Positions 436 to 24,797 of a stretch of 64,000 nt of DNA are shown here, piece by piece. Position numbers and translations under genes: made by a program. How positions within the stretch are numbered: the stretch's first letter is position 1; every line of letters begins with the position of its first letter. The DNA is taken from contig CM048850.1 in the NCBI GenBank assembly GCA_026545225.1, positions 29,255,797-29,319,796 on the forward strand. The letters are read 5' to 3'. A model generated the notes under the pieces. It was not told where the DNA came from. It was given only the letters and a program-made list of their open reading frames with translations, and searched no databases. The stretch is from Cornus controversa (lineage: Eukaryota > Streptophyta > Magnoliopsida > Cornales > Cornaceae).

Positions 436-449
436 CACTACAAGAAATA
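436..449 (+). repeat. CACTA left terminal inverted repeat
   Basis: CACTACAAGAAATA directly follows TTC. Its reverse complement differs at one position from the right end at 24784-24797. CACTACAAGAAA is the classic end of plant CACTA elements. Confidence 0.9.
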
Positions 450-469
450 AGGGCTTTAGAGACAGTCAA

Positions 470-940
470 ATCCGTCACTAAAAGTCCAAAAACTGCCGCT
501 AATGCTCAAATCGGACCGTCACTAAAAGTGGCGTCGTGAAAGGTCATTAGTGACGGTTAAGCTTTACCGTCACAAAAAAATGGTGTATTAGTGACGGTTT
601 TAACCATCACTAATAACTGGACTATTAGTGATGGTGAGGGACTGTCACTAATACGCTTGCGTATTAGTGACGGTTTTGACTGTCACTAATAACTAGACTA
701 TTAGTGATGGTCATGAACTATCACTAATACGCTGGTGTATTAGAAAATGGTTTAACCGTCACTAATAACTGGACTATTAGTGACGGTCATGAACTGTCAC
801 TAATACGCTGGTGTATTAGCAACGGGTTGACCGTCACTAATAACTGGACTATTAGTGACGGTCAAGAACTGTTCCTAATACGCATGAGTATTAAGGACGG
901 TTTGTCCTGTCCCTAATACCTACATTTAGACTGTCCCTAA
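470..940. repeat. CACTA left subterminal array, ~76-bp units with inverted motifs
   Basis: ATTAGTGACGGT and its complement ACCGTCACTAAT alternate throughout. The phrase ACTATTAG recurs at 621, 697, 773 and 848, giving a 75-76 bp period. Each unit is an imperfect palindrome that can fold into a stem. In CACTA elements subterminal repeats bind the element's TNPA-type protein. That family role is known; binding here is inferred. Confidence 0.85.
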
Positions 941-1270
941 TACTATAAATAATTTTTTTAATTTATATATTTTGCTTAATTTTTGTTTTTATAATTTGCT
1001 TGATTTGTTAATTTACATTTCTTAAGCTAATAACAATATAAAAAATATATTAATATCAAAATTCAAAATAAATTATATATATGACAATATTAAATAAATA
1101 TTGCATAAATTACGTAACAATACCTAATTAGGACTTTTTTATAAAAAAAAACCAATAAGTTAATACAAGCTAGTTCATAATCCAAGATAACAAAACAAAA
1201 CATAAATTAAACAAATTTGTCTTGAAATAAAACAAGCATGCATTGAACAATATAGATCCAAGATAGAACC
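941..1270. other. AT-rich CACTA interior, no feature seen
   Basis: Low-complexity AT-rich sequence between the subterminal array and the Pro/Gln-rich segment. No coding potential or repeat end was recognised. Confidence 0.5.
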
Positions 1271-1445
1271 TACAAAAGAAAATCCAAAATTAAGGTGGTG
1301 TTGGTGCTGAATGGGGTGTTGGTGTTGGGGCTGACTCTAATGTCGTTTGTATTGGTGTTGATTGGGGCTGCTGAGAAAACTGGAACCATGGTGGTGGATG
1401 ATGTGGATGCTAATACTACCACCATGGTAGCGGCTGGGGATACCT
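1271..1445 (-). repeat. Pro/Gln-rich CACTA-interior segment, full partner of 1-165
   Basis: The minus strand has a mostly readable Pro/Gln-rich frame ending SAPTPP before a stop. It meets the captured xylanase reading frame at about 1445, where the xylanase GFLGEY runs into GIPSRYHGG. It may be the remnant of a CACTA-encoded protein, or simply the acceptor sequence into which the gene fragment was joined. Confidence 0.5.
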
Positions 1446-2224
1446 TGGTATTCTCCTAAAAACCCATAAAAACTATACGAACCATAGTCATCCATCTGAC
1501 CCTCCACCACTCTGGTTTGCCATTCTTTCAGGAGCTTGTCCACGACATCACCGGCTGGGAGGTTATGAAAATCATCATCTGTGAGGCACATTCTGTAGCA
1601 CCCATGTGGGTGGTAGTGCAGTCCAAAGCATTATTCCATTGATAGAAAGGTGTGAGAAGCCTTCTCTCAGCACTACTTCTAGATATGAAGCCTACAAAAA
1701 CTAGTAAAAAGAAGGGAAAAAACCATAATTTGTGGGGGATTGCATTGAAATGTTCACACCAAATACTTATTCAATCTTATAATTGCATATATACCTGTGT
1801 TTCCTAATCAAGTGTATTGCTGATATCAACCTCTGTAAGCCAAATAGGAAGCTCTATTGTGGCCAACTTGTCTAGGACAGCTCTGATAAGAGAAGGGTTT
1901 GGCACTGTAAAGTGGCTTTTTAGGCCAATTCTATCCCTTAACACAGCACTGCTTTTGAGTTCTCTTAGCCTTGAATTAATGTAGTTGTCAACAGTGGAAC
2001 TAACATCGTCACAAGTCTCCACCACATTAAATTCATTCATAAACAAGGATTTTTGCAGAAAATATTATGGCCTCTAGCCATAATTTGGTTAGCTCTAACA
2101 AATTCTAACATTTGATTTGGTATAGTGTAGTTCACTTTCCGTGGTTGGGGTTCTGTAGAGTACCACTTGAGTTCATATTCAAAAACAACAGTGTTGAATC
2201 TCTCAACAAACCAATTCTGAAACA

Positions 2225-2248
2225 AATATATATATATATATATATATT
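2225..2248. repeat. (TA)n microsatellite in xylanase intron
   Basis: About 12 AT dinucleotides immediately upstream of the exon ending at 2216. Confidence 0.9.
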
Positions 2249-2734
2249 TGTTATTTTAGTTATAAACATCAGTTTTTCCATTGCTCATTAGAATTCAATG
2301 TAGGATATAGACTGTACCAACCTGATAAGTCAAATTTCCAAGAATGGTCTTTGCTATAGCAGACCCCAATGAGAAATCTCTTGAAACTTGCTCTACTATA
2401 ATCTGTGCTCCTTGTAGCCTATCTCCATGTACATCTGATACATGAATTGTGACTGCGCGTTTTCTTTCCTACACCAAGAAAATTAAAAATGGGTAAAAGA
2501 AATAAGAAATTTCATATTTCTTGACTATTTGAAAAAAGAAAAAGGATGTTAGAACAATTTCAATTTTTCATTTTGTCTCCTTAGTCTTCTTGATCATAAA
2601 TCTAATAAAGTCATGAACCAAAAAATATCTAGTAGTTACAGTGTTGATTTTGTGTTGTTCGTCCTCCTTTCTTTTTCTGCTTTCCTTTGTGTGTGTGTGT
2701 GTTTTTATATATATTCACACTTTAGCAAAGTTGT

Positions 2735-4102
2735 TGATGTGGCCAAATATGTCTTTATTTTTGTAGCTTACTATTGCCTATCAAAATATAATTTAAACCA
2801 CTCGCAAGAGAACGAATCTTTGTAGATACGGTTCTTTATAGAGGGTATCGATCCCACAAGGAGTTTGGTTGAATTACACTATTAAGAGATAATTTCTAAT
2901 TTAATCCTAAAAACATAATTTTGGTTTGAATTTAACACTACTTTGTAGAATGTAAAAGCATTAAATTTTAAAATAATTTGTAAAGTTGAAAGAGAGAGAA
3001 CTAGGGGTGGTTTCCACCTCTAGCCACTTGACATGTTCATTTATGTAGCTAATGGGATCTTCTACAAGTATATGTAACACAATGTCATTAGACTTGTGAC
3101 CTATAATGACATATCAAAAGATAAATGGAATTTTTAACTAAACATAGCCCATCTTTAACAAGCATAGTCCTTCAACCTATCTACTTATCATACATTCTAA
3201 ATGTACCTACGTGTGTCCGAACTACCCTATCTTGGCATGGGCTATATAAGCAAGAAATATCACATTCCATTAAACACCATTACAAAGCCATCATTTACAT
3301 TTTTTTTGTGAAAGTTGTAAATGTTGAGCATTCAAAATAAAGCATTTCTACTCTAAGACAAGATGAAGAAATAAAATCAAATGAATATATTGAAGAAGTT
3401 CACAAGTATTATACAAAACACTAGGCTAAGTAATCAACATATACAAATAGATCCCAAAATAGCTACAAAATGCACAAGTTACATGGCTAGGGGTTTCAAC
3501 CACACCCTAGATGGAAAGTTAGTTGATCATTGGAGACTTGTAATCCTCCATGGCCAGAGATATGAAGCTCCAAAGGTCTGGTTTTAGCTCCCTTCTTTCC
3601 TCTCGAAAGTTGTTGTCTTCTCTTTCCCAAAAACATGCATATATGTCCATCCACTTGTGTCCTTGGATCCCACCTTGCATATATATATCTATATAGTTCA
3701 CCTACTATATATATATTCCCTTCACATGGATTTTTTAAGTCAGAAAATTCTCAAAAAGGACGTGCAAAGGTCATTCTTGGAAGCAAGTAGCAAGACAAGT
3801 GGGCAAGTGGACAAGTGGGCAACTTGCAGTCTACAGAAGTTCGATTGTACGAAATTGAGGTTTCGCACAATCGAGATTTCGATTGTGCGAAATTATCATC
3901 TTGATTGTGCGAAATACCTTGACGAATTTTTCTTGATTTCTTCACTCCCTCAGCACTTGATCGGAAACATCGCCCTTCTTTGGGAAAAACCTAATATATA
4001 ACATAAACACAAAAATAGCATAAAAATACCAAGGTAAACATAAATACGGAATCAACATATGCAATTAAGAAGGCATAAATGTGTAACATTTAACGCTTAT
4101 CA
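2735..4102 (-). mobile_element. Solo LTR, Athila-type, inside the xylanase intron
   Basis: On the plus strand it runs from TGATGTGG to CGCTTATCA; on the minus strand it begins TGATAAGCG and ends CCACATCA. It is flanked by GTTGT (2730-2734) and ATTGT (4103-4107), a 4-of-5 target duplication. It is the same subfamily as the LTR at 56059-57468: both share CTCGCAAGAG, CGAATCTTTGTAGATACGGT and GAACTAGGGGTGGTTTCCAC. It contains a hairpin array at 3838-3915 built on TTTCGATTGTGCGAAA. No internal region remains, so it is a product of LTR-LTR recombination. Confidence 0.85.
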
Positions 4103-4313
4103 ATTGTGAATGCATAACAATGTATTGAAAGTAAGAATACCTGAAAATATAGGAAAGAGAGAGATGAGGGTGAATCAAGAACAAATCCACCTATGAGAAA
4201 TGGCCAGCAACCGCGCCTAGCGATAACAGTCCCTACGCACTGGAATGTAGTATTATCCATTGTTAGGCTTGCCTTTACTAGAGCTGAATTTGCACCCTTT
4301 ATTTTTCCCCAAC

Positions 4314-4614
4314 CTGTTGATTAAAATTAGCCAACATTATTCAATAAATATGTGTTATAACTGAAAAATATAAAACTTAGATTTTTATCACTTCTTTTGC
4401 ATTTTTTTATTGTTACTATTGTCAGGACAATATGATACACCAAGCATATTAAGATCACAATACTAAATGTATAGAAACTTAAGTAATCTCCATTCATTAA
4501 AAGATCATAGCAATCGATTTTGAAGCAACTTTAAGAAATAATAAGTTCCAGTTAAAGTTCATTATAAAAATAGATCATACACCTATAAATACAAATTCAA
4601 TTTGTATTAGTATA
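4314..4614. other. CACTA interior, no gene recognised
   Basis: AT-rich sequence between the xylanase CBM22 exon and the next solo LTR. The acceptor upstream of the exon (CAACAG) lies at its left edge, so this is probably remaining xylanase intron. Confidence 0.4.
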
Positions 4615-5720
4615 TGTAATGCCCCGATCCCCCGACTCCCGGGAAACCGGAGGTTAAGCTCCGTGAGATCACCCTCACGCTATAACCACCACCTAATCAT
4701 ACAATCTCAATTTCCTATTATTTTCATGAAATTGGGCATGACCCATTCTAATAAATCAGATCCTGGTATGTTATTCCTACTTTAAATTCAAATGGACACT
4801 TATGGGCACGTGTCCCCCCCAGCATTCACATCTAAAAATCCAAATGGACACTTCTGGGCATGTGTCCCCCCAGCATTCTTACAACATACATATTGCAATT
4901 GAAATAATAACTCAGTCCCTGAATGTCCGTCTCATATACATACATCAAATGAATAAAATACAACTGGAATAAAATACCCAACATAAAAATCTAATACATT
5001 TAATCCCAATGTAAATAAAATCTATCCAACATCCTGGACATACATCAGATTCTAAGGAATCTAGACACTACCTCTGCAACTAGTGCTGTCAGTCCCCTAA
5101 CTAACTCCGCAATCAACAATACCTGCAAAACCTGGGAGGGGGTGAGCTCAAAGGCCCAACAAGGTATGTCAAACCATACTATCACCGCTGCAGCAGATCG
5201 ATCCTCACATATTCTCAAAAATATACATGCACTTAAATATATCACAATATTTAAAACTGTGCTCCTCCTAGCATGCGTGAACCAACAATGTAAACGGCTA
5301 CTCTAGCACATATGAACATAAAACATCTACTACACATGATTTTCGAAATCATTTTCAACATGCTCATAGGCGATAACATCCAATATCAATATGTACAGAA
5401 AACATATATGGATTGAAGCTTTTACATAGACAATGTAAATCAAATACCACATCACCTACTCAACAAGTAGCAATCTCAAATGCAATGAAGATGCATTTAA
5501 ACTGTACAACATGCTCAAAAGCAATAACCTCCAACATATATCGTGTTCATTCACAAGCAATGCATATATAAGAATGCATTAAACACATAACATGCTTCTC
5601 AATTTAAAAATGAAAGCAATATCATCCTCTTGTCTCCCTCTCGAACTCAACCCGATATTCTAGCATGATTCTTAACCAACCATGCTACCTAAGACGCCTC
5701 TCACACAATCTCAACACCGC

Positions 5721-6020
5721 CACCGAGTAAGTCACATACTCTGAGGTGGTTAAGTGGCTTCGGGATTCCTCACCGAGTAAATCACATACTCCAAGGCGAT
5801 TGAATAGTCCCGGCATACATCACCGAGTAAGTCACATACTCCAAGGTGGTTAGATAGTTTCAGAATACATCACCGAGTAAATTACATACTCCAAGGTGGT
5901 TAAATGGCTTTGGGATTCCTCACCGAGTAAATCACATACTCAAAGGCGATTGGATGGTCCCGAAATACATCACCGAGTAAGTCATATACTCCAAGGTGGT
6001 TAGATTACTCTCCATTTTCC
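5721..6020. repeat. Six 50-bp tandem units with 150-bp higher-order structure
   Basis: Each unit starts CACCGAGTAA, at 5721, 5771, 5821, 5871, 5921 and 5971, exactly 50 bp apart. Unit 1 resembles 4 (both end GGGATTCCT), 2 resembles 5 (AAGGCGATTG), and 3 resembles 6 (AAGGTGGTTAGAT). The array is thus a duplicated 150-bp trimer. It lies inside the solo LTR. Confidence 0.92.
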
Positions 6021-6607
6021 CCAGTTCTCCTCACAACGGTCCTATACATGCATTTCAATTTCATGCTTCACAATGCACAAGCTAGTTATAAAAGCACATG
6101 GCATGCATTTCACCTCCACAAACCTCATGTATAATTACCTATACATGTAAACCTTAGAATAAGTCGCATATGTTCACAAAATTCGCTTAAGCACATTTTA
6201 GTCATGCTTCACCAATGCACCTATTTTCTATATATAGACAGTATGCATTTAACTCACATAAACCCACATGTAATTTACATATGCATATATACTAGCATAA
6301 ATATCATCATGCTACACTCGAGACATACATTTACTACAAGTAACTAGTATGCTTTTCATCCACAATATATATAACCACATATATATTCAAATCCATGCAT
6401 AAAACCCACTTATGCATACACAATAACACATAGCTAAACATAAATAATTTAGCATGTTTGACATGGCTCAATCTACACATATACATATCACAAGGTACAC
6501 AAGCATTTAAATCTAGCATGCTTTTATCTCCCAAATATATATATATATACACACCTATATATATCTATTCCCTCACATCCTACGTATATGCACACATGCA
6601 CCATGAC

Positions 6608-6609
<2 letters not shown>

Positions 6610-6650
<41 letters not shown>

Positions 6651-6667
6651 TCCTATATATATATATA
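6610..6667. repeat. (TA)n microsatellite
   Basis: About 19 uninterrupted AT repeats at 6610-6648, then a second shorter run to about 6667, within the solo LTR. Confidence 0.95.
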
Positions 6668-8398
6668 AATACCACATATGAATAATTAAAGAACATATGT
6701 AAAATTAATGACGTAATTAAAATAGATACGTAGGAGATAGAGGCAAGAATCAACTTACCTTAGGTCCCATTTTTATTGTGCCCGTGCCTGCAAAGCGATC
6801 TATTTTCATGCCCGGTCCAGTCCCATGTCCAAGTCCACACGAACAATCCAATGGACCACTTCATCTCCTTTTTAGTTTCCATGTTTGACCCAATTTAATT
6901 AGGCAAGCCCAAATACACTTCTTCGCAGTCCACACCGTAAGGCCTACTTTCCAAAGCCCAATCTAATCAAATTGAGGCCCATTTCACATCAACCAAACTC
7001 AATATAGCAGCCAATGCAATCCATCCCAATTATAGTTTAGTGGCAGACCATTTCAAGCCCAATCTCATGTGAATCCACAAGTAAACAACCAACATGAACC
7101 CGACTCACCATGGCAGCCACTATATAAACATAAACTAACCTCCAATGGCCACCAACCCAAACTAGCCGAATCATGCAACACTCACCATGGACCTCAATCA
7201 ACCAAGCTCAACCAACCAACATTGAACCCGAGCAGTCCACACCACATGAACCACTATGTTACACCACCTCGTTACAGCCACGGGAAACCATAGACCCGCT
7301 ATAACCGAACCCACAGCAAGTACCCACAAACTAGCCACCACAGTTGTCCAAGAGAAGCAAGCTATCAAGAAAACCCAGCTAGAGTCCCTTCTGAACACAA
7401 CCTACCAGGTATTAATATTGTGAAAGCACAACTCGACACCGTCGGTCGGCTGAAGAATTTCTTCAGTTTACTGAAATGGTAGTTTCTGTTGACCAGAGCA
7501 ATCTGTCGGTCGTTCGAAACCTGCGACACCCACCGGCCACCCAAAACCACCAATAGCCGAGCCAAACGAAATCCACAGCCATGGCTGTCACCATGTCCGA
7601 CCATACTGTGATTAACGGTGAACCAAACAGCTCCTAACAGAGCCTATGGAAGACCCACCTTCAGTTGTACCTTCACCAAGCTCAACCATGGCAGCCATGG
7701 CTGCCCACCGTTCAACCACCACTGAACCCATTGCCCCTTTGCTGGAGCACCACCTCGGGCCGTCGAAATCACCGGCCACCACCGCAGAACCCACCTGCTA
7801 AAACCACTACCTGTCGCTTCAGCCACACGACCACTCAACCGAGTCTCCACCTTTCTCTCTCTCGGTCCCTTCTTTCTCTCTCTATCAGTTTCTCTCTCTC
7901 CATTCTCTCGACTGAACTCTCTCTCTCTAGCCATCTCGGCTCTCTCTCTCTTTCCCAATTTCTCTTCTTATTCTTCCTTTCTTTTTCTTTTCTTTTTCTT
8001 CTCCTTTTTCTCTCTCTTTTCTCCTCCCCAGCCGACCACTCATTGGTCTTCTCTTTTTTTTTCTTTTTGAATTCTTTTCCCCTTTTATTTTGGTCCACTC
8101 ATTTCATCATCCAACCTCCTCCACAAGTTAAAACATATACATATATACTTATATACATACACATAATACCCACATGTGCATAAATACATTTCTCTCTATA
8201 CATGCATAATTACATACATGTATTTCCATATATTTATAATTAAATATAAATATATGTACTATATATACATATATACATACACCTTCCACTTATATGGAAA
8301 CATATATACCCACACCCTTTCGATTTAATTAATTCAAAAAAAAATTAATCTAGTCCAAAATCATCCGGGACCGGTCAAAATTAATCCAGGTCGTTACA

Positions 8399-10266
8399 GT
8401 ATATATAGATATATGCACAAATTGGCAGATCTTGTTAAACTCTTCGAATATCTCGCATATGAGACAAACCTACCAGCTTACTTCAAGTGGAAATAGAGAA
8501 CACAATCGGAGATGAGAAGCTAAAATTGATCAGAGATAAGCGATTATATTTCAAATTTAAAAACAATTCATAGTCGTTCTTACAAATTTTCTAAAGGAAA
8601 ACACTTCCCTATAAAAACCTTAGATTCTTTTTTGCTAAGGTACCTACTAAGAAATAACAATAGTGAAATAGTCTGAAACATACACTCAAAAGATTTTGAG
8701 TTTTTTTCCCCTTATTGGTGGAACCACAGTGTATTTCTAAGCAATCCAAAATTCTAAAAGAACATATGCTCTGTAAACATCTATAAACAAAAACTAAATT
8801 TTCATTTTTCTTAGAAGAAAACAACTTTACCAAGAGAAAGGAAAAATTATTGCCGTAGTATATAGTCATTTGATTAAACCAAAGGACTAATGCTAGGTCG
8901 TGCGTTACACAAAAAGAGGCCACTGCCCAGTTTTGATCCCATTGGCGGAGGGTGCTAGCATGATTACTGAATATTCATTTGTTTAACAATCAAACTTAGT
9001 TTGATTATCCAAACCAAAAGAAGCCAAACTCAATCTCAATTCATTTTTATCCTTTTTTGTAACAATCAACCTTTATTATTAGACTCTTCCAAACTCCCTG
9101 GTAAGTTACAACATTCTAAACAAGACAATACTAACCTGTATAGTAACCGAATATGACCTCATTTCTGCAAAAATAAAAAATAAAAAAAAATAGAGAGAGG
9201 GAGGGAGGGAGAATAAATTCTAAAAAAATCTAATGTTAAGGGTATGTTAAAAGAAAAATCTTACTCACATTTGTTTAACGATCTAATAAATTATTATATA
9301 GCACATAAGGTTTCACCGGTATTATTACTTTAGAAATAAACTTATACTATTAGTAAATCAATAGTGAAAAATTCCATAAAAAGCAAAAAATATTCAGGTC
9401 ACCACAAGAAATTTTAGAATTTTCTGCAGATGACTAAAGAAACCAAACAATGTGGGCAAAAATATTGTAATTGTAAAGGGAAATTTGGCAAGAAGACAAA
9501 ATTTAATAAATCAAGGTCACTACACCAAAATATAAGCAACTTCCAGGATTACACTAGGTGTTAGTCTAATTGCAAAGGTGCTGCAATTCTAGGTGCTATT
9601 TCAATAGCATCTTCACTGCCTGCCACTTGGTTGAGAGACACTAGAAGGTGGCAGAACCCAGTGCTTACAACTACTTAACAAGTTAATAGTGACTCCTCAG
9701 AGTCATGCGTGTGCATTTAAATTCCTATACAAAAGCTTTTTAATAGATCTGGAAAGCCATAAGGGAGCCCAAAGCCACGATTACCTTGTGGCTGCCAGTC
9801 TCTAGAAAAAAAATAAAAACTTCTACAAAGCATATCATACACCTGCCACACATTTAGTCTTGGGAAGGAAATAAGCTATAATACAGGCCTATTTTAAACA
9901 ATCTCCTTTTCACCCGAAAAACATAATAATCACTAGGTTGCAAAAGCTTCTTATAAACAATCTTAATAGTATCCCAGCAAGAGCCACCCCACCATTTGCC
10001 AGTAGCTCAACAATGTAACAATGAACTAGCCGATAATATGTTAATATTGCCCTTCTATATTGACCCAACACATTGAATGTCACAAATCTCAAATATATCC
10101 ACCCATCGACAAGAAACCAAAAGCTATAATAGAACTGATCAACAATTGGAAATGTTGTATATAATGATTTGGAAAGTATCTCCTAACTCGAATGTTCATG
10201 AAAATGAATGATTTTGACCTAGTTTTGTGTGTGTCTATACATAACATACATGTATTCTTATGATAG
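8399..10266. other. CACTA interior, unassigned
   Basis: No gene family recognised on either strand. At 9516-9530 CACTACACCAAAATA resembles a CACTA-type terminus but has no partner end. A short hairpin (CTGCCACTT ... AAGGTGGCAG) lies near 9618-9655. Minus-strand open frames near 8609-8923 and 9910-10092 have no family resemblance that I can see. Confidence 0.35.
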
Positions 10267-10751
10267 GTTGGATGTAACCAGTCCAGCTCTCAACTTGTAG
10301 AGCCAAGTTTGTGTCTTCAGCCACAAAAGTAGCCTCAAGTTCATTCTAATAGAATTTTCTCCTTCACTTGCAATTCTGTTTCATCAAAGGCTACAATTCC
10401 AAGTAAGACACGGATCAGGTGGACTCAAGAACTTCATGAGCGATTTGTTGAATTTGTAAATTACCTTGGGGGTGCTGAAAGTAAGTGACGAGGATAATAA
10501 TCTCAATGTGAAAGTAGATACATATAGAGTGATAATTAATCATATATTGGCTGTGTGCAGAGGCAACTCCAAAGGGAATCCTAAAACTGATGAACTCTGA
10601 TGGATTGACCATCTTTCATATTAAAAGTCACTTGCAGGTTCCCAAGCTATGCTATATACTCAAATTTGTATGCATCTGAATCAATTTTACCTTTATTTTT
10701 TCTTTTTCCATAAATATCGTACTGCCAAGTATATAACAAAATCTGCAGAAG
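10267..10751 (+). pseudogene. Captured fragment of a PHR1-like MYB-CC (GARP) transcription factor
   Basis: Three plus-strand exons in correct phase: 10267-10480, ending KTRIRWTQELHERFVEFVN and YLGGAE; 10561-10637, [14 protein letters not shown] then [11 protein letters not shown]; 10712-10751, KYRTAKYITKSAE. Together they rebuild the GARP MYB DNA-binding domain, including the SHLQKYR motif split across an exon junction. In plants PHR1/PHL proteins bind P1BS sites and control phosphate-starvation genes. The first donor is GTAAGT, the acceptor before exon 2 is TGCAG, and the acceptor before exon 3 has AT where AG is expected. A TAG at 10330-10332 interrupts the upstream part. The MYB-CC coiled coil is absent. 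It is followed directly by a LINE fragment. Other GARP subfamilies are possible, but the KTRIRWTQ and GILKLMxSxGLTIFH pattern favours PHR1/PHL. Confidence 0.88.
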
Positions 10752-10799
10752 GTAAATTAAATTTGCTAGTGGTCATATTCAATACCTGTTATATATATA

Positions 10800-11560
10800 T
10801 ATCAATTAGTGCAGAATATCAATGGAAGCCAATGGTCTATACTGATTACTGTTGTTTCGGGCACTCAAATCAGTCTTGTGTGAAAAATCAGAAGGTGGAG
10901 GTTCCTAAGCATGATTTTTTTGAACCAAATTTTTTATCAAGCTGGCCAAATTTGGAGAGTTGTTTCTAATGATATTATTGATAGAAGAAGGTTATGGACT
11001 GATATAAAGGAGTTATCTAATATTCACAAAAATGAACCCTGGTTTTAGCTGGGGATTTTAATGCTATTAGATATAGGCATGAGAAAGTGGGGGTTCTACA
11101 GATTGGAATGAAAGCTCTAAAGAATTTGGCTACTATATTGAAGTTGCTGAATTATCTGACTTGAGACACATTGGTTTGAAATTTACTTGGTCTAATAGCA
11201 CTTTCTTTAGGAAGTTGGATAAAGTACTTGTTAATGACAGTTGGTTGGGCAAGTATGTTGTATCTGAGGCAGTGTTTGAGGCTCCAGGAATTTCAGATCA
11301 TTCCTTCATCCTGCTGAAGTTGAATGCTGTTGCTAAATCAAACAAGAAAAAACCATTTCGATTCAATAATTCCTCCTTGATCATCCTGATTGCTTTGATT
11401 TGGTAGCCAGAGTTTGGAATTGTAAGGTTGCTGCTACACCTATGTATATAGTCACTCAAAAACTTAAAAGGGTGAAAGCTGAATTGAAGAAAGGGATTGC
11501 TTACAAAGTTTTCAACACTTGGCAAAAGCTGAAGAATCTTATCACAATTTAGTGTACCGA
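10800..11560 (+). mobile_element. L1-type LINE fragment (ORF1 knuckle joined to endonuclease)
   Basis: Read in several frames: a degenerate zinc knuckle around 10820-10900 (FGHSNQSC, with the first Cys replaced by Tyr), then endonuclease motifs at about 11040-11330 (VLAGDFNAI, LKFTWSN, KLDKVLVNDSW, SDHSFILLKLN), then the post-endonuclease linker to about 11560. Plant LINE-1 endonuclease nicks target DNA for target-primed reverse transcription. The knuckle and endonuclease are joined by an internal deletion, frames shift repeatedly, and there is no RT here. Confidence 0.85.
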
Positions 11561-11949
11561 ATACACAAAACCAACAAATTCTAAAAAAGCAAAGCCAGAA
11601 CAAGAGAAGTGCCGAGCAATGAGAAATCTGTCTGAGAGCAAGCTTGCTAGATTGAACTAATACCAAATGATGAATCAGATACAAATTACAATGTACACAC
11701 ATGACAATTTCCCAGTAATTTTAGTTTGGAACTTTAGTTCAAACTCATACTTAATTATCCTTAAAAACCTCTGGATTAAATTTCAAGACACATGAAAGAT
11801 GGACTTATTAAGTAATATCATTTTCATAATACCCAAAAGTTAACAGTAAAGAAAACATGCAATAAACTATTAGTAACTTGCATGAATTCTAAGCAACTGC
11901 CTGAAATACACACCACTAATTGAAATAGGGAAGGGGGCTACATGCATAC
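11561..11949. other. CACTA interior, unassigned
   Basis: AT-rich, no family recognised. It is probably intron adjoining the CIPK-like exon, since that exon's donor (GTATGC) points into it on the minus strand. Confidence 0.35.
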
Positions 11950-12012
11950 CTGATGTAATCTAATGACGTTTGGATGCTTGAGGATCTTCAAAGTGCCAAT
12001 CTCTATCTTAAT
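11950..12012 (-). pseudogene. Single captured exon of a CIPK1-like (SnRK3) protein kinase
   Basis: A 63-bp minus-strand exon lies between an acceptor (GGTTGCAG) and a donor (GTATGC). It encodes 21 residues in phase 0, including IGTLKILKHPNVIRLH. This is the alpha-C helix and following turn of CBL-interacting protein kinases. The alpha-C Glu is kept, while the usual Lys-Arg-Glu is Lys-Ile-Glu. The IGTLK wording is closest to CIPK1 as I recall the family. CIPKs act with calcineurin-B-like calcium sensors in ion and stress signalling. No ATP-binding, catalytic-loop or NAF exon is visible nearby, so this is one exon with intron flanks. Confidence 0.78.
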
Positions 12013-12399: not shown

Positions 12400-12527
12400 C
12401 TCAGTTTCAACTTACATGATTTGCATTGTAACAAATTCCATCTCAATTTAATAATATACTAAACTGGTAATAAAGGCAACACTTTGCCTAACAAAGAAAG
12501 AACAGAACACTACCCACTGCCATATTT

Positions 12528-13203: not shown

Positions 13204-16084
13204 TGTCACGTCCCGAATCTCAAAGACCCGAGTTACGACTAAAAGAAAATATAAGAAAGGAATAGAAAATGATCCGAACCCCGGACCCCGAGCCGACATC
13301 AAAGTCGTCACTGCAGAAGCGATAAACAACTTAACTATAATTAGCATACACTAAACATGCTCAATAGAAAAGATAAATTACAAAACTTTTGATTATGACA
13401 TGTCATGCAAGTACAGAAGTACTAAGCCAACAAACTGGCCCCGAATAACGTAACATACATGTTATCCTAGTTGTACCTACTACATGCAAGTATAACTACA
13501 AAACACCAAAAAAAGAAAAATGCTACGTCAAGCTTTCTGGAGCTCAAGCAACATCTTTTCCGTCCCTATTTCCTGAAAAATGTGGTACATCTGTAGGGTG
13601 AGCAACGACGGCTCAGTAGAAATGACTCAACTGTCCCCCCCTAAACATTTCAGACTGAAGTAAGAATTCCTAAGGGAACATGCACGTAATGTTGTTCTTT
13701 CTAATATGTTCCTATTTCCCTTTCCACATGCTTCACAAGTATTCACTAAAATACATTTACACATAAGCATGAAATATAACCTGCCCATAAACAATGAAGC
13801 CATAACTCGTCCATAATAATGGAATAATAAACCTATTTATAATGATTTGGAAAGCGTAAAACTTGAAATAAACAGTTTGCTTATTTAGATGTAGTGCATA
13901 TGACACACACACACACACACCACATGTAACTCAAATAGTTGTGACACACGCATCAACAGAGCAGTCCTCAAACAGTCCTTCTGTACATTTTGTCATTTCG
14001 GATTACTAGTCCGCAGGTCGACGTGAAACCACTGGCCAGTCAGGTGGACTTATCAACCACTAGGCATCTTTGTGCCTCTATTTTCAATTCCGACTATTTA
14101 AAACTTCTCGAAAATCATAACTCACACATGATATGAACAAAATGATCAATATGAACAATGTAATAACAATGTCCATAATAATTATCCTCATAGCATTGGT
14201 TCTACATCTATGTGCACCAAGCTTTCAATGAGTCATTCCTTAAGCAAAATTTCCACTTAAATAAATGTCTCTTTTCAAAAAGGCTTTAAACCTTCAAATC
14301 CTTTTTAATAGGGCTTTAAACCTTTAATTTCAATGCTTGCATATATATAGTATCAAAACATAACCAAATTCATAATTTAACCAAAGTAGTACATCTAGGC
14401 AATTTATATGCTACCTAGCAAGCATACTTGAACTTTCAAATCAAATATATTAAATTAACACCAAATCATTCTCTAGTACATTCAAAGCATAATTTAAAGC
14501 ATTTAGACAATTCCAGTTCCATGCCAAAAGCCATGTTGCACCGTGGAGCCCTAGCTCCAAACATTAAAGTATGGTCAAAATTCCAAAATTTCTCCTAAGT
14601 GTTACCTATCATGCTCAACATGTTCAAAAGGCGTATACAAACACTGAGGCACTTTAAATAACCACCTGGCATGCATTCTCAACTAATGTACACATGAATG
14701 ACCAAAATACCCCTAGTGGTCTATAAGTTGTCAAATGAATTCAAATGAAACCAAATTCATCCATTAGCATTCCTACACACTAATTAAGTAAAATGTAGGA
14801 TGCTTGAACACACATTAGCAAACAAAGCATACATGTCACTACTTTTTCTCAAAATACTCTTCTTGAACAAAAGTTAAGCTTTTTATTCCAAGACACTAAT
14901 GGATGACCCAAGACTTCCATAATTTACAATCATTAACACAATTACTATAAAAGTAATGTAGAACTCCAAGCTCTTACACAACACTAGAGTTATCATGCAA
15001 TAAAGTGTACTTTAATTTCAAATTAAGAGCACAAGTGATCCAATGGCATACATGTCTCAATGGTAAACCTCCCTAAAAATGCTAATAGGCATAATCTAAG
15101 GTCCAAACACATTTAGCATGCTCAAAACACAAAAGCCCCAATTTTTCATGAAATAAAGTAAACTTTAATTTACACATTTTGCAATTCATGTTAGAATCTC
15201 AACCTAACACTTCCTAAAGTCTCAAAACATTAGGAAAGGAAGTTAAATTCATTCCTACCTTAAATCCAAGAAGGATTGAAGAAACCCCCAAATTGAATTT
15301 TGAAATTCAATTTGAAACCCTAACTTTTCTTCAAAAGCTTTAATGGAGAAATCAATGGAAAGGAATGGAAGTCTTCAAGTCCCAAAGCTTCCAATACTAC
15401 AAACCATACACCACACTCATTCTTCAAACTTCAATAATTGAAAAAGAAGATGAAGAGAGGAAGTAGAAGAAAAAGATGGACAAAAGTGGTGGAAAGAAAC
15501 ACTTACATGCCACTAGCACCAACACTAACCACCACTAATAACCTTGGACTAAGCCTACCCTTCAAGCACCTTCAATGGAGGAAGAAAGAGAGCAAAATGA
15601 GAGATGGAGATGAAAAAGAAAGGGCTAACAGAACTTATGGGGAAGAGAGCAAGACAATTTTGACTTTTATAGCTCAAAACCTATAGATATACATCTATAT
15701 CTCCCACCCCTACTAGAAGCTTCTAGACTCCCCCAAGTGAAAATTCTCTTTTATAGCTCAAAACCTATAGATATACATCTATGCCATTCTTTTTCAAAGA
15801 ATTTTCGATGGTGTCATCCATAATACAAAATTACTAAAATACCCTTCACTTTAAAAGAAATGTCGAAATCGTCCCAAATCTTTTTGGAAAAGACTAACAT
15901 ATCCTCATGTCCCACCATCCCATAGAACTATTCTTTAACTTTGAAAATGCCTGGGATCAAACCAATACTTGAAATTGGAAACCCGAACATCCAAACAGAT
16001 TATAAACTTAGAAATGAAATAATAAAAATAAAACATTTTAATAAAATAAAACATTTAATTAAAAAAAAAATTCAGGATCTCACA
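13204..16084 (-). mobile_element. 2.9 kb solo LTR of a gypsy element
   Basis: It runs from TGTCACGTCCCGAATCTC to CAGGATCTCACA and is flanked by a perfect 5-bp duplication TTCTC (13199-13203, 16085-16089). Minus orientation is inferred from its end CGGGACGTGACA, which resembles the 3' ends of the other Tekay-like LTRs. No PBS or internal sequence adjoins it. The open frames inside are not genes. Confidence 0.87.
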
Positions 16085-16549
16085 TTCTCCTTCCCATTCA
16101 TTTGTTATTCCTTTCCCCTGTTCTCTTTCTCTCTCTAAAATCTAGACATAAAACAATTTACTCAAATCATTAAACCTCTTCCAATTCTTGTTCAAGAATT
16201 GACAGATTAAATACATATACTATATATAATTACAAGTTACTATATTCTCATCCATAGTACATCAATTTAACTCAAAGATCTATCATCCCAGCTACTAATT
16301 GGAGTCAACTACAAAGAATATTTTGTCCCCATATGATACTTTTAAAGCCATATCTAGGTTGAATCTAACACAATCACGTCATTTCGCAGTTCTTTTTCCC
16401 TTTTGACACCTGTTCTATAAATTGGGATGAGAATTGGATTTGGGGCTCTTAGTTTCTACCTTGTAATTATATAAAAAAAATGAGGTTAGTTCTTGTTTAG
16501 AATCAAATCCTGTAGACCCCCTTTTCACCGAAAATAAATAAAATCAACA

Positions 16550-16595
<46 letters not shown>

Positions 16596-16989
16596 CTGTG
16601 TGGTGATCAACGAACTACAAAAGGATAGGACAGTTTTACAGATTTGGCAGGCAACCTTGGGAGGGAAGCCAAAATTTAGAAACTCCTCGTTTGGAGAAAT
16701 GTTATGTCACAATTTTCTTTTGCTTTATAAGTTACCTTTAATCATCTTTTGTCTCCTAAGGACCATAGAAAAATGAGCAGAAGAGACAACAAAATTGTTG
16801 GAGTTGACTATCTTATATTTGCAAATGATACCGGACTTAAAGAAGAGAGCCCAAGGCACTCCATTTCTTTAATACATATCATATCACTTAAGAAGTGCAA
16901 GTCATCATACTTCATATCAGACCTATGGATTGACAGCCAACTCCAAGAGGACCAGTAGTTATATTTATAACTAACACCAGTGTCCTTTG

Positions 16990-17032
<43 letters not shown>

Positions 17033-18465
17033 CTATCCGAAGAGAGAGACCATGAATGATCCATTTAGAACCTTCAACCCTGATGCTTCTCTAAATGCAG
17101 ACACACGACCAAAGAAGCATTGCCATTTCAAATCTATGCATTTGTTTCATTTTAACAGAAATTGAACCTAATACATAGAATAACATGTTAGGGTGATAAA
17201 AAGTGAGAAAAGAAGAAAGAAAGATATTACCTGGACTACCACTGACCCATTATCCTAGCTGATTAATTCGAAAGATTAGCTTCCTCTCTGTCAAAATTAG
17301 AACTCTCTCTTTTTCTCTGTAGACACACACACACATAATCATAGTAATTGTAATAAAAAGTATAAAATCCTAATTGAAACAAAATTTTAGTACACATCAT
17401 ATCCCAAGTGAGACATTTTAGTTGATCTTGATCCTTTTCATCACCAATATGGTAGTAAAAAATTGCAAGCAATTTGGAGAATAACTTGAAGAGTAGCAGA
17501 ACCACACAGAAAATGGAAGTAAAAATGGATGAATTAGAAATAAAAAATAAAATAAAATAAAATAGGGGAGAAAGTACAAAAAGTCCTATTTATAAAAATA
17601 TAAGACCACCAAATCCTATTAATGAATAGCAGAACCAAAAGAGTTATCTACAAAAAGATCATAGTTTAATAGAATTCTTTGCAAAATAGCCTTTAGATTT
17701 TATTTAGTTTAATCTCGTTAAGCCATCATCAATTAAAGTATGCATGCATATCACTTCATAAGCGTATAATATGGGTTCTGAACTTGTACACAATGATTCA
17801 ATTTCCTAATCACAATGGCTAAATGGCTTTCTTCTCCAAGAATCCATGAGTTTACATCTATCTCTATTTTAATGATCTAAGGACTAATTCCAACCCAACC
17901 CAAGGTCCAATGCCCCCAAATTTGATCTCAACAACTTGTAAGAACCAACGAAATGGAGACAAATTATTGAATTCACCAACTTGCAGATTTAGATTAGTCA
18001 GTATATGACGGCATAAACAAAGAGGAGGAAATATACAATTACACTTCTGAGATTCTTACTATGCAAGTGTCAATAGCTTTGGATTTAGTGGAAAGACATG
18101 GGATAGGCTATAGTATATTTAACTCTTGATTGCCTTTGGCGAGCTTTTGACTCCATTAGCAGTAGCAGTAGTAGCAGCTCATCCTGCAAACTGCCCTAAT
18201 TTGGAGAGATTTGGATTAGGGTTGAACAAGGTAATAGAGAGTGGTTGAAACCTACAGGGAAAGCATTCAGTGTGTGCTCCCTTGTGCTTTACCCTTGGCT
18301 ATCAAAAATACATTTGGATTGTGCAGACACAAAGGTTATACCTACCACCATACCCATCCAGGCAGATGGGTATCGCCTTTATGGGATTGGAAATTTGAAT
18401 CTCAATGAACTTGAATATTGGCCTCTATCAGTTAGTTAGATTTATTATCCAGAGGAAGCTCTCAC
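16085..18465. other. CACTA interior, unassigned
   Basis: Contains (TA)n tracts at 16554-16591 and 16992-17029 and several short open frames that I cannot place. Some stretches at about 16610-16960 and 18040-18440 are less AT-rich and could be further captured gene pieces, but no motif is convincing. Confidence 0.35.
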
Positions 18466-18557
18466 CTGAAGCTGCTTGGTTGCTTGCAGCATGCATAATG
18501 CTGAGAAACCTTTTCATTCGTGGGACATCCCTCATAAACGTTGCATGACATTCCTTC
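18466..18557 (-). other. Exon-like segment, unidentified
   Basis: On the minus strand a 92-bp segment lies between a fitting acceptor (GTCTAG) and donor (GTGAGA) and is open in two frames. One reads ATFMRDVPRMKRFLSIMHAA, the other CPTNEKVSQHYACC. I do not recognise a family. Its position between other captured exons makes a further gene fragment plausible. Confidence 0.3.
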
Positions 18558-18840
18558 CTAGACTTAATATGACATACCAAGACTTAGTGGTAAAAAGTTA
18601 TATTATGTAAGTGACTGATTTCTAAAAACCAAAAAACCTCCCCTAAACAGGAAAAAATCCATATATATATATATATATAATAGAACAGTTATGCAACAAT
18701 TTATCAAAACTTGTGCAGGAGCTAAAAGCTGTAGCATACTAAATAGACTGCAAAAGAAAAACTAATTACTACTTGTTAGCTCAGTATTAGACATTACAAA
18801 ACTAAAAAAACCAATTAAAGCACTTAACTACTGAGTCTTG

Positions 18841-18876
<36 letters not shown>

Positions 18877-19635
18877 GACACACACAAATGCACACATTTT
18901 GTGCCTTTAGTCTTCTAGAAATAAGCTAAAAATATTTTCCAAACCTGTATGTGCTTACATAATGAGCCAAGAAAAAAAATGGAACATTTGGCTCCATATA
19001 TGAGAATGTCAGCCTAACATATTGATTGATGTTCCAAAAATCATGGTTATAATAGATAAAAGATAAAAAAAATGTTCTTACTACCTTACCAATTACCATA
19101 CTAAATAGTCGATGATGCCACCTCCCCCCACCCCAAACACACAAAAAAACATCCACCAAACAGGGAAAATAAAACCCAAAACAAATATATATATTTGATA
19201 GAAAAATTATGAATTATGCAATATATTTTCAAAACTTGTACAACGAAAGGTTGAAGCAAAATAAATAGAATGTGAAAGAGAAACTGAATTGCAATTTTTT
19301 AGCTCAGTACTAGACATTGCAAAACTAAAATAATCAATTCAAGCACTTTACTAGTGAGTCATGTCATATATATATATATATACATATATATGTGTGCACA
19401 CATACAAATGCACAAGTATTATGAATTTAGTCTTCTAGCAAAAAGAACACAATATATTTCAAACATGTGTATGCATACATATTACTCTACATACTTTTCC
19501 ACCTCTATTACATTAACTTCAACCAAAAACAAAGTATTCAACTACAACTAAAATCATATTACAAAGTTAAATACTAATAAGAAATTCTCAGTTATAGTAC
19601 AACATATGAGTATAAATTTTCAGGAGGTTTCTTAC
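18558..19635. other. CACTA interior, unassigned
   Basis: AT-rich with (TA)n tracts at 18660-18679 and 18842-18873. A diverged local duplication is visible: about 18690-18920 and 19205-19440 share GCACTT, GACATT(A/G)CAAAACTAAAA and CTTTAGTCTTCTAG-like stretches. This region would be intron downstream of the RPL3 exon. Confidence 0.4.
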
Positions 19636-19741
19636 TTGATCCAGGTTTTTCAACCTCCCTGACAATATGGGTCATTTCGGCCTTATAACCCAAAACAGCA
19701 GTAAGGTTACAAGGCTTGTTTGGATCATCCTTAGGGAAAGC
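19636..19741 (-). pseudogene. Single captured exon of 60S ribosomal protein L3 (uL3)
   Basis: A 106-bp minus-strand exon has an AG acceptor and a GTAAGA donor and an open frame. It encodes [11 protein letters not shown] then [20 protein letters not shown] and PGS, matching the N-terminal region of eukaryotic L3, normally FPKDD..P..LTAFLGYKAGMTHI. L3 is a core protein of the large ribosomal subunit near the peptidyl-transferase centre. The Gly before Met is Glu here. No start exon or downstream L3 exon is visible in the neighbouring sequence. Confidence 0.88.
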
Positions 19742-20123
19742 CTTCAGTGCATGAATACAAGATACCAACAAAAATTATGTTAGAGAAGTTTCACATACTG
19801 TCATGCTTGCAATTCATAGGACATACTGTCATGAAGTACCAGCCGATGGAGCAAATAGAAAGAAAAACTAATAAATTCCATAATCATATAATTAAGTTGA
19901 ACTAATCAAAACCAACAAGCTTATGTTCATTAAAGGGTAGAAGCCCTAATTAGCAAAATTCCCGAATTGAGTGAACTCTAAACCTAAGTAGAACAAACCC
20001 GTAATCCGTAATTGACAAAATCCCAAAATTTATGGAACCCCAAACCCTAATTGGACATAATTAGACCTAATTGGACTGAAACCCATATTAATTGAAATCA
20101 GAAGCCCTAATTGGCAACTTACC
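19742..20123. other. Sequence upstream of the RPL3 exon, probable captured intron or leader
   Basis: Contains several variants of AAACCCTAATTGG / GAAGCCCTAATTGG, continuing at 23760 beyond the solo LTR insertion. On the minus strand these are repeated imperfect copies. No exon was identified. Confidence 0.4.
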
Positions 20124-23100
20124 TGAAATACCCCCCAGAAAATTCCGCGCATGAGGTGGCCAGTCTCATACACAAAACCTGAGAGATACTAACAATTGAT
20201 AGCAAACAAGCATAGAATACAATGACTAAAGAAAAAGAATTATAAATACTGAAAGGAAAGTCTAACTGAAATAAATAATCATGTTAAATAACATTGTATT
20301 ATTCTGATTGATACAACTTGGAAGTCCGGTAATCCACGGACCCCTTAACCAAATAAAAACATCAAAGTAAAACTCTATGAACCGATTTAAGTCCCTACAC
20401 TAAAGTATGGTAAGGAATGGATGATTGTCAAGCTCTACGAACTCCACACGCAAATCTTCAGATAGAAACTGTCTGGAACCTGAAATATCAACAAAGTGGG
20501 TTAAACCCACGAGCAAATTCTCTCTACTACAACCCAATCAGAGAACCGGTAAACATACCCTCTATATGAGGACAGTAAAGACATATAGATATAATTATAC
20601 CGTTTAGTTATTAAATCTCCTATCTTAGAAGTAACTAGAACTATGTTCTGAACTAACCCATCCATTATCACAATACAGATAAAACAAATTTCTAAGTTCA
20701 GACCATAGACAATCCTAACATGCCTTCTTCCATATATTCTACAAATGCCTTACAAGGTATTAGGCAAACCTATCCTGCCTTCACCAATAATCCTTTTCCA
20801 AGACAACAAATTTATGTTTATATACAATTAAAGATAATCCACCAGCTCATAAATATATATACCCAATTAACCCTATGACCCAAAAATAGAGCCGGCCCAC
20901 ACCCTACACTAACACATCAGTTATTTTAATGCAAGTGCAGACTAATTTTAAGTTTACACAAGAAATAATCGTAATATGCTCGAATATATAACGAGAAACG
21001 TTCTTACTAGATATTAGGCAATCCTGACATGCTCCAAATAAAATATAAAGATATCATATTAGGTGTTTGGCGATCCCGACATGCCTTGGCAATCCCAACA
21101 TGCCAAATATAATGCATAGATACCTTATTAAGTATTAGGCGATCCCGACACGCCTTGGCAATCCCAACATGCCAAATATAATGCATATATACCTTATTAG
21201 GTATTAGGCGATCCTGACACGCCTTGGCAATCCCAACATGCCAAATATAATGCATAGATACCTTATTAGGTATGGGCGATCCTGACACGCCTGGCAATCC
21301 TTACATGCCAACATAAAATGCATAAATACCTTATTAGGTATGGGCGATCCTGACACGCCGGGCAATCCTTACATGCCAAAATAAAATGCATAGATACCTT
21401 ATTAGGTATGGGCGATCCTGACACGCCGGGCAATCCTTACATGCCAAAATAAAATGCATAGATACCTTATTAGGTATGGGCGATCCTGACACGCCGGGCA
21501 ATCCTTACATGCCAAAATAAAATGCATAGATACCTTATTAGGTATGGGCGATCCTGACACGCCGGGCAATCCTTACATGCCAAAATAAAATGCATAGATA
21601 CATTCCCAATATGAAACATAAAATAAACAAGGTGCATTATGATCTTAATTTGCACAAACAAAGTAATTCAAATTATCCGATAGGAAATTATCACCATAAG
21701 ACAAATCGTTCACAAGTAAGCTATAATCAAGTATTTAATGGGCATTTATATCCTTAAAAGCAAATACATTCAAGTAAATCAAATAACACAATTTAACCAT
21801 TTTAGAAGCAAACACCCAATCCAACCCCCAATGCACTCAAATTTATGAGGGAGTCTAAACCAAACTGTTATCTAGGTTTCTGGGCCTATTCTACTTCTAA
21901 TAACCCTATTAAATCAGTCTGGAATTTTTTTAAATTAAAAAAATATTTTCAACAAATAAAAGAAGGTGAAAACCCAACTTTTAGACACTTTAAAAATTCA
22001 TTGAACACTAAGGGAAGCTCCTTTCAAGATGAAAATTTAAACCCAAGTTTATTTAACCTCCAGAAAGTTACCACAAAAATTTGGGAATTTTTGGAATTAC
22101 AAAAGTATTTTCTAAAATTACAGAAATTGAAAAACCCAACTTTTGGACACTTTAAAAATCATTTGAACAACAAGGGAAGATCATTTTGAGTTGAAAATTT
22201 AAACCCAAGTTTATTTAGCCTCCATAAAGTTACAGTAAAAATTTCGGAATTTTTGGAAATTTCTAAATATTTTCTAAAATTAAAGAAGCTGAAAAACTCA
22301 ATTTTTAGACACTTTAAAAATTAATTTAAAGACAATGGTAAATCATTTCAACATGAAATTTAAACTCCAAGCTCCTTAAGCTCCCAGAAAGTTGACATAA
22401 AAATTTGGGAATTTTTAGAATTCTAAAAGTATTTTTAAAAAAATGATTTCCCTAATTTTCAAGTTTTTTCAAAAATTTTAAAAATTCAAAACAAATAATA
22501 AAATAATTCGGAATGGGCCCATATCGGACCCAGAGGTGGGCCCCCGAGAGTGGGCCCCAAAAATACTTTTCCGGCCACCGTCTCCGGCGTCACGCGCCCC
22601 CACGCGCCGGCGGCGGGTGGCCCCCTTTTCTTTTTCTTTTTTTTTTTTTTTCTTTTTCTTTTTTTTTTCTTTCCTTCTTCTTCCCCACCTGAAGCTTCAC
22701 GCTCCCAACAATGGTGGAAAACTTTCCGATCACTTTCCGATCACTTCCGGGCACCGAATCGCGTATATAAATATATCATTGAACTCGTATCGATCTAAGC
22801 TACGCATTGGTACCAAAATTATCACCTCTTGCGGCCTAAATTAAAAACGCCCAATTTCAAGTTTCAAAAATCTAAAATTTCAAACTCAATTTCCCGTCAA
22901 TCTACCCAACGGTTCACAACCAAACTTTCAAGGATTGTTCTAGAAAGTAAGATCTACCTTTTAATCAGAACAAAAACGTTCAAAAATGATGAATACAGTA
23001 AACCCAATTTCATGTATATATATATATACATACACGCCTATACAGTCATATATACATGTATATATATATGCAAAAATACCCTAAAACAGTACCAAAACTC

Positions 23101-23759
23101 CAAAATCTTCATGTTTAATTTACAGAAATTCTTAACATGAAAAATCATTTAATTTCATAATTAATTGCATACAATTTCTAGCAACATGTCTATACAATTA
23201 ATATATATATTACATATATATTTCAGCAACATGTATATACAAAAATATATATGTATACAGATTCAAAGGGGAAGAGAAGAGTTCGAACTTGCCTTGTGAT
23301 GTTAAGCAAAAATCACTTCTTTTCTCTTTTCCGGGCGTCTACCGTTTTCTCCCTATCTGTTCGTAGGAATCCTCTCTACGTAGAAACTACTGAACCCTAA
23401 TTCCTTTTCTCTTATTTAACATTCTTAAATAATGAAACTAATAAATATAAAATATTTAGCCCAACTATATATATATATATATAGCCCAGCCCAGCTGCCT
23501 AGCCCAACATAATAATAATAATAATAAAACAAGAATAAAGAAAATGCAGCCCAAACCAACATATTTTTATTTAACAGAAAAACACTATATTTAAAACAAA
23601 TATTTAACACACAATCAACACTTAGTAACAATTCAAACATCCACATTAAACATAAAAAAAAAGGCATTGACAAAATTAATTAAAGTATTTAAATAATTAA
23701 AAACTCCATCAACTAAATAAAAACCCAATTTAAATATCCTCAAATTACGGGGTATTACA
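20124..23759 (-). mobile_element. 3.6 kb solo LTR of a gypsy element
   Basis: It runs from TGAAATACCCCCCAG to ACGGGGTATTACA and is flanked by a perfect duplication TTACC (20119-20123, 23760-23764). On the minus strand it starts TGTAATACCCCG, a typical Tekay-like LTR start. It contains an eight-unit tandem array and a poly-pyrimidine tract at about 22626-22685. Short open frames inside come from the tandem array and low-complexity DNA. Confidence 0.88.
21050..21602. repeat. Eight ~68-bp tandem units in the LTR
   Basis: Units begin at about 21050, 21119, 21189, 21257, 21325, 21393, 21461 and 21529 with GATACCTTATTAGGTA-type starts and contain GGCGATCCTGACACGCC. The last four are nearly identical and the first ones more diverged, suggesting recent local expansion at the right side. 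Confidence 0.93.
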
Positions 23760-24469
23760 TTACCCAAATTGATTGACCACCAAACCCTACTTAGACCTAA
23801 TTATAACCCCAATGCCTAATTAGATGTAATATAAAATAAAAAAATATGATACCAAATATCAAATTAATGATCTGTATTGCAAAAAAAACCTTAAACCGCA
23901 ATTATTGTACCTTTAGCTTGTGGATTTGACGAATAAATCTAGTATTGAACGAGCTGGTGGATTCGGAGAAAGAAGCTAACAGATTAATTCGGTGAACAGA
24001 ATAAATCTACCATTAAAGGAGTGTAGCATGAGATTGATTCGTGGTTAGGCTTGTGGATCGACTTGCTTTACCTTCGGAAGGGCTTGTGGATCGACTTGCT
24101 TCGCCTATGGATACATTCAAAGCAAGGATGACTTCGAAGCACATGCAACTTTAAGAAGTAACAAGAACAAGTGTTGTAGATAATCGACTTGCTTCGACCT
24201 TGTGGATTTGGGGAAGAGAAACAAGTGTTGAATGAAAGAGGCTAAACGTCTAGATCTGATGAGCGATGATGGAAATGAGAGACAGAAGGTGATGAAGTAA
24301 TGATACTATGTGTGTGATTATAGATCGATAGAGAGTCTTAAAAATAGTCAAAATGGCGTAGTATATGTGTTTTGGCAAAATAAATTTATTGTTTGCAATC
24401 CCGCCAAACTATTAAACAAGGCGCTATAATTTTTGGGACTTTTTAGGACGGTCCAAAATTATCATCTCC
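23760..24469. other. CACTA right interior
   Basis: Holds three variants of GGCTTGTGGATCGACTTGCT between about 24040 and 24220, then non-coding sequence up to the subterminal array. No gene recognised. Confidence 0.45.
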
Positions 24470-24783
24470 AATAATTAGAGTCATTAGTGACGATTTTTAG
24501 AGCCTTTTGGGATGATCCAAAACAAATGTGCCCAAAAATTAGTCATTAGTTACGGTCCAAGTGTACCATGACTAAAAATAGGAGTATTAGCGATGATTTT
24601 TTGGGCTATCCCTAAAGGACTGTCCATTAGTGACGGTTCAAGTGCACCGTGCCTAAAAAATAGGGGTATTAGCGACGATTTTTGGACTGTCCTTAAAGGA
24701 CTGTCCATTAGTGACGGTCCAATTGCACCTTGCCTAAAAATATGAGTATTAGCGATGGTTTTTTAAATTGTCCCTAAAAAGCA
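24470..24783. repeat. CACTA right subterminal array, ~81-bp units
   Basis: Repeats of CCATTAGTGACGGTCCAA(G/T)TG and GTATTAGCGACGATTTTT occur with about 81-bp spacing (for example at 24622 and 24702). It shares the TTAGTGACGGT core with the left array. Confidence 0.85.
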
Positions 24784-24797
24784 TATTTCTTATAGTG
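24784..24797 (-). repeat. CACTA right terminal inverted repeat
   Basis: TATTTCTTATAGTG is followed by TTC. Its complement matches the left end at 13 of 14 positions. Confidence 0.9.

Follow-up and report, generated by a model that had tools for sequence, protein, structure and literature searches.

CACTA elements that collect pieces of host genes raise the question of how such collections are put together, which is hard to infer from the end products. We met this question in the window, i.e. the whole stretch of 64,000 nucleotides that was analysed (G000:C6:29255797-29319796 of a 771.7-Mb plant assembly), where one pair of CACTA ends encloses pieces of several unrelated host genes. Positions 436-24797 are likely a non-autonomous multi-locus Pack-CACTA of about 12.7 kb that was swollen to 24.4 kb by four solo-LTR-like insertions and received its cargo stepwise. 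The features are collected in Table 1.

Table 1. Positions of the element, its arms, its cargo and the nested insertions (window coordinates unless a contig is given)
Feature	Position	Strand	Details
Whole CACTA insertion	436-24797	+	TIRs 436-447, 24786-24797; TTC duplication 433-435, 24798-24800
Left-arm core	436-1447	+	76-bp subterminal tandem repeats; common to GH10-less relatives up to ~1449
GH10 xylanase fragment	1448-4320	-	several exons; interrupted by solo-LTR-like 2735-4102
Solo-LTR-like 1	2735-4102		TG..CA; duplication GTTGT/ATTGT; copies A and B without insertion here
Solo-LTR-like 2	4615-8398	+	TG..CA; duplication GTATA; copy A empty, single GTATA
MYB segment, piece 1	8404-8584		outside match C1:119797902-119798081, 95%
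MYB segment, piece 2	8582-9239		outside match C9:54412000-54412658, 96%
MYB segment, piece 3	9232-9974		outside match C1:105979619-105980368, 93%
MYB segment, piece 4	10021-10190		outside match C8:62096134-62096303, 92%
MYB segment, piece 5, PHR-like MYB fragment	10195-10758	+	exon ending 10480, exon 10561-10637
LINE-like stretch	10830-11534	+	read by eye; first part shared with copy e24
Probable CIPK-like kinase exon	11950-12012	-	63 bp; flanked by an AG acceptor and a GT donor
Solo-LTR-like 3	13204-16084	+	TG..CA; duplication TTCTC; empty site not observed
RPL3 fragment	19559-19883	-	exon ~19636-19746; GT donor kept, AG acceptor lost
Right-arm core	19878-20123 and 23760-24797	+	split by solo-LTR-like 20124-23759
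Solo-LTR-like 4	20124-23759		TG..CA; duplication TTACC
81-bp subterminal repeats	24544-24778		within right-arm core
Other places with the MYB segment, whole or much of it	C7:3919311; C2:29276085; C1:24183200; C4:71953606; C4:21308461

Ends, family and net size of the insertion

Positions 436-24797 combine CACTA-type short inverted ends, a 3-bp target duplication and subterminal repeats. The 12-bp inverted ends read CACTACAAGAAA on the left and TTTCTTATAGTG on the right, with a TTC beside each. Since 12-mers like these are near chance when taken alone (26 seen with up to two mismatches vs 21.3 expected), the pairing of the ends is established by a related empty site that lies elsewhere in the window. 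There, 37737-38008 and 38030-38237 resemble the flanks 162-432 and 24797-25004 at 88% each. The joined flanks align through the insertion point with one TTC at this point and a gap of about 22 bases roughly 36 bases to its left. The element is a single CACTA insertion, in agreement with the paired ends and TTC duplication described in the initial annotation. Its target site was judged by eye to be an LTR-like part. The empty site, together with the pairing of left and right arms, ruled out that the two ends belong to different elements. No Pfam match to a transposase was obtained among the element ORFs submitted.

Both arms belong to a family. A query with the left end (400-1000) gave at least 85 matches in the assembly (best 40 of 210 candidates scored), grouped by hand into at least 40 places, and at 29 of the 39 other places the match started at the first base of the element, plus or minus one. 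With the right arm (23900-24830) at least 79 matches were found (best 40 of 122 candidates scored), grouped by hand into at least 41 loci. For 15 of the 40 listed left-end places, the window's included, a right arm on the same strand and in the correct order lay within 70 kb. This gave 16 pairs vs 0.07 expected by chance and none on the wrong strand. The left and right arms are thus a family pair. Spans between them ranged from 8 to 63 kb, and some may contain nested insertions or join neighbours rather than the ends of one element. About 3.5 kb were compared for each of three further left-end loci (L005, L007, L008), which match the window up to ~1449 or less.

Just upstream of the element and in the same orientation, window -674 to 161 holds another left end of this CACTA family in degenerate form (~80%; L019). 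Its tip is degenerate, and it is cut off at 161 where the LTR-like target sequence starts. Elsewhere in the window an exact CACTACAAGAAA terminus is found on the minus strand at 35745-35756; an exact-match partner for it was found nowhere in the window beyond the two ends of 436-24797. In addition, an ORF at 52869-53630 contains a Transposase_32 domain (E 2.6e-16), and minus-strand ORFs at 57854-59718 encode retrotransposon gag, protease and reverse transcriptase.

The element is interrupted by four nested segments, all with TG..CA ends and with a 5-bp duplication that is perfect in three and has a single mismatch in one. Empty sites were directly seen for two of them and deduced from match spacing for another: at C2:35172669 only 134 bases separate the RPL3-segment and right-arm matches, so this copy lacks the fourth insertion. 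The status of the third is given by its TTCTC duplication. The four insertions with one duplication each add up to 11,689 bp and leave 12,673 bp. About 11.7 kb are later solo-LTR-like insertions, so that the 24-kb capture platform of the initial annotation shrinks to an element proper of about 12.7 kb. Elements with gene fragments can look too large when nested retrotransposon remnants are counted in.

Host-gene fragments and their recurrence in other copies

Four host genes had been claimed for the element. GH10, MYB and RPL3 were clearly identified; the fourth, a CIPK-like exon, is probable with a weaker match (CIPK23 at E 5.9e-4 over 24 aligned residues; nothing in Pfam). Two further exon-like bits had been suspected as well, for which we found no gene identity. 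Pfam scans of chosen ORFs from the element and from copy e24 revealed no additional host genes. Two ORFs inside the LINE-like stretch had no Pfam match, and 12085-12411 matched the LINE-type zf-RVT domain just below the curated cut-off (E 8.9e-6). The splice signals were intact only in part: several are kept, e.g. the AG/GT of the CIPK-like exon and the GT-AG of the MYB intron, but the RPL3 acceptor is lost.

The GH10 fragment gave Pfam E-values of 2.8e-7 and 1.8e-6. A Cornus florida xylanase aligns to it over residues 117-552 of 581 in exon-sized blocks, with a stop and gaps, and the window's fragment has decayed through deletions, a break in the reading frame and a stop codon. A minus-strand reading of 1340-1630 as a transposon ORF was rejected, because it is the last GH10 exon. 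GH10 is oriented head to head with the MYB fragment. When the GH10 reading put together from copy B, whose left end lies near C6:21848475, served as the query, 602 proteins were found at E <= 0.001; among the best 120 of these 602 that were listed, the closest relative was a Cornus florida protein with 75%.

The joint between the left arm and GH10 is the same in four copies: the window element, copy A (left end C2:29273167), copy B and copy e24 (C1:24181840-24191839, with the element at 52-8769 of L024). Relatives at C7:3806138 and C8:25777604 read straight through this point. A GH10 deletion of about 200 bp is common to the window and copy A and not present in B; a stretch of about 120 bp including an exon is found in A and B and missing from the window. 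In a left-arm tree with 14 rows the four GH10 copies formed one side of a branch (support 72/82), and the window grouped with copy A (80/71). The tree backs a single origin of the four copies only moderately. Such an origin is favoured rather than proven, for which the shared junction is a stronger argument than the tree.

The MYB fragment was recognised from its two exons, which are open and in frame across the GT-AG intron. Joined, they match Myb_DNA-binding with E 3.8e-7; the first alone reached only 0.011, below the curated cut-off, and the second alone had no Pfam match. The surrounding segment (query 8404-10660) yielded 22 matches in the assembly (all 19 candidates scored). It recurs whole or largely at five other places with 94-96%. 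Matches to one piece only covered query bases 1-181, 179-836, 829-1571, 1618-1787 and 1792-2257, each at a different one of five loci. Where pieces were compared together with 72-200 bases of the outside flank (pieces 2, 3 and 5), the homology ended at both edges. In the alignments, piece 1 runs 3 bases into piece 2, and piece 2 runs 8 bases into piece 3 with one mismatch inside the overlap. Pieces 3 and 4 stand 46 bases apart, pieces 4 and 5 only 4 bases. At most joints the pieces come within a few bases of each other. By these alignments the 2.26-kb segment is a mosaic in which at least five pieces can be told apart, with matches at five loci. Short extra matches were obtained for query bases 102-181 at three places and for 754-810 at three, therefore some of the pieces contain low-copy repeats.

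The outside match of the fifth piece, C9:50850341-50850805, amounts to 96% over 10195-10660 and to 91% over 10195-10758 with gaps counted. This makes the locus at C9:50.85 Mb a candidate source of the MYB fragment, with transfer presumably from the locus into the element. The open exons do not decide the direction, because they are open at the C9 locus as well as in the element. A MYB-like paralogue pair also matches, with 73% at C8:60415309 and 83% at C4:73867610.

RPL3 was identified by Pfam (E 1.5e-12) and by solved uL3 chains (best E 1e-16). Its outside match, C10:32778465-32778790, reached 76% and has AG at the acceptor where the element has AC; the exon alone is also matched by C4:56906698 with 77%. 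At this similarity the C10 match is either older or paralogous to the true donor. From a query with 19480-20122 we obtained 48 matches in the assembly (all 25 candidates scored). The whole RPL3 segment was found in two copies on C2 (95% and 90%), in both directly before right arms. Because the nearest family left ends on the correct strand lie 52 and 46 kb upstream, these two copies could be of great length or else nested. Matches at right-arm loci commonly begin no earlier than query base 399, which places the start of the right arm at 19878, 6 bp inside the end of the RPL3 match.

The cargo is thus shared with other copies: three have the GH10 junction, five have all or part of the MYB segment and two have the RPL3 segment. 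Copy e24 is complete, with CAT at either side; its cargo includes the 3' end of GH10 and the MYB segment, and the nested LTRs are absent. Of the sequence that separates GH10 from MYB it keeps 37 bp, which indicates an internal deletion in e24. Besides the window element, at least A and e24 combine GH10 with MYB. About 38.8 kb were examined for the right end of copy A, and of three loose candidates none was convincing. Copy B holds GH10 without the MYB segment and adds fragments of a D-mannose lectin (B_lectin, L014:4509-5061, E 1.3e-16); its flanks, ATG and GCG, do not match as a duplication. Among 15 left-end places compared as 10-kb pieces, one (e24) carried GH10 or MYB cargo. The left ends at C7:3916840 and C4:21311365 adjoin MYB-segment matches. 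L025:7416-9952 is a 2.5-kb family element with GTT on both sides; it shares 93% of the 2.1-kb right part of e24.

The assembly search with 19480-20122 gave no RPL3 match at the five MYB-segment places. Likewise, no MYB-segment match was found at the two C2 RPL3 places except 40 bases at C2:34928255. Within the searches made, RPL3 and the MYB patchwork stand together only in the window copy. The initial annotation had suggested to look for other copies with the same ends, which did turn up with shared cargo, and had seen the window copy as the capture platform for at least four loci. At least several source loci hold, and from the alignments they outnumber the genes carried. The window copy itself was not the captor of GH10, MYB and RPL3, because each of these pieces is common to other copies.

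Assembly of the cargo

The fragments lie in mixed orientation and keep introns, which bears out the proposed capture at the DNA level; a retrocopy origin was ruled out by the introns. For the stepwise history that we consider likely, cargo would have been added in ancestral copies. Patchwork filler may have been laid down during break repair inside the element by template switching at homologies of a few bases, which would fit the short pieces from many loci and their few-base overlaps. The copies would then have multiplied by transposase supplied in trans. The similarity to the outside match is 76% for RPL3 and 92-96% for the pieces of the MYB segment, which suggests separate captures. Taken together with the presence of GH10 in copy B, which has no MYB segment, this is most simply read as several captures spread over time.

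In the window copy, a left half with GH10 and the MYB patchwork would finally have been joined to a right half with RPL3, the two being otherwise found in different copies. Tentatively, the element can be read as a fusion of two Pack-CACTA lineages, one contributing the left arm, GH10 and the five-locus MYB patchwork, the other RPL3 and the right arm. If this is true, modules arise by fine gap-filling patchwork and are shuffled when copies fuse.

A different origin would be tandem insertion followed by re-mobilisation, in which two nearby family members move by their outer ends as one, with the host DNA in between. This model is published for Pack-CACTAs (in the part of the literature available to us, section 9 of PMC8903248, and PMC13317346), and the second left end directly upstream (~80%, same orientation, -674 to 161) provides such a neighbour. 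However, the tip of that end is degenerate and it is cut off at 161. Furthermore, the model predicts long contiguous host DNA, whereas the MYB segment comprises, within 2.26 kb, five pieces of ~170-750 bp with matches on three contigs. We regard tandem insertion as rather unlikely for the element as a whole; it could account for joins on a larger scale, for example that of GH10 or the one between the two halves.

The element could also have been kept as a selected chimeric gene or as a source of small RNAs directed at the parent genes. Several splice signals survive and the MYB exons are open, but the broken frame, stop and deletions in GH10, the lost RPL3 acceptor and the large LTRs inside make this very unlikely. 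The fragments are decayed, and a protein function is most likely absent.

Capture of natural neighbour genes in one event, which the initial annotation had named as the case against its own reading, could draw on the head-to-head arrangement of GH10 and MYB and on their joint occurrence in at least A and e24. Pieces matching four further loci sit between these two genes, though, and in copy B GH10 is found with no MYB segment. For MYB and RPL3, neighbourhood is excluded by outside matches on different contigs (C9:50.85 Mb and C10:32.78 Mb) and by the five-locus mosaic, such that we consider a single event highly improbable overall. An assembly artefact joining separate contigs, for which nothing speaks beyond the unusual make-up, is hardly credible, since the related empty site spans the element ends and the internal joints recur in copies on other contigs (11703-19479 being compared with the fetched copies only).

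Comparison with known systems

Pack-MULEs and Helitrons capture gene fragments too, with ends and transposition that differ from those of CACTA elements. Both are named alongside in the available part of a report on Tgm-Express1 (PMC1947982), a soybean CACTA element in the wp allele. According to the same part, Tgm-Express1 carries exonic and intronic pieces from five unrelated host genes, measures 5.7 kb, lies inside a gene and was shown to give chimeric transcripts. The Cornus element resembles it as a CACTA element with pieces of several unrelated host genes. In contrast to what is described there, it is larger (~12.7 kb net), contains nested LTRs, has sibling copies with partly shared cargo and is known here from sequence alone.

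A second likeness exists to the Pack-CACTAs of maize, which as far as the available text of PMC8903248 describes them hold several loci per element: in both cases genic DNA from several loci is bounded by TIRs. Unlike in the published capture model for Pack-CACTAs as given there, i.e. fusion of neighbouring insertions, part of the Cornus cargo is a fine mosaic. Multi-gene Pack-CACTAs are already known from soybean and maize, and the value of the present one lies in an unusually readable assembly history. One genome with copies resembling different stages, shared junctions and candidate donors allows the competing capture models, fusion of tandem insertions and patchwork repair, to be compared joint by joint.
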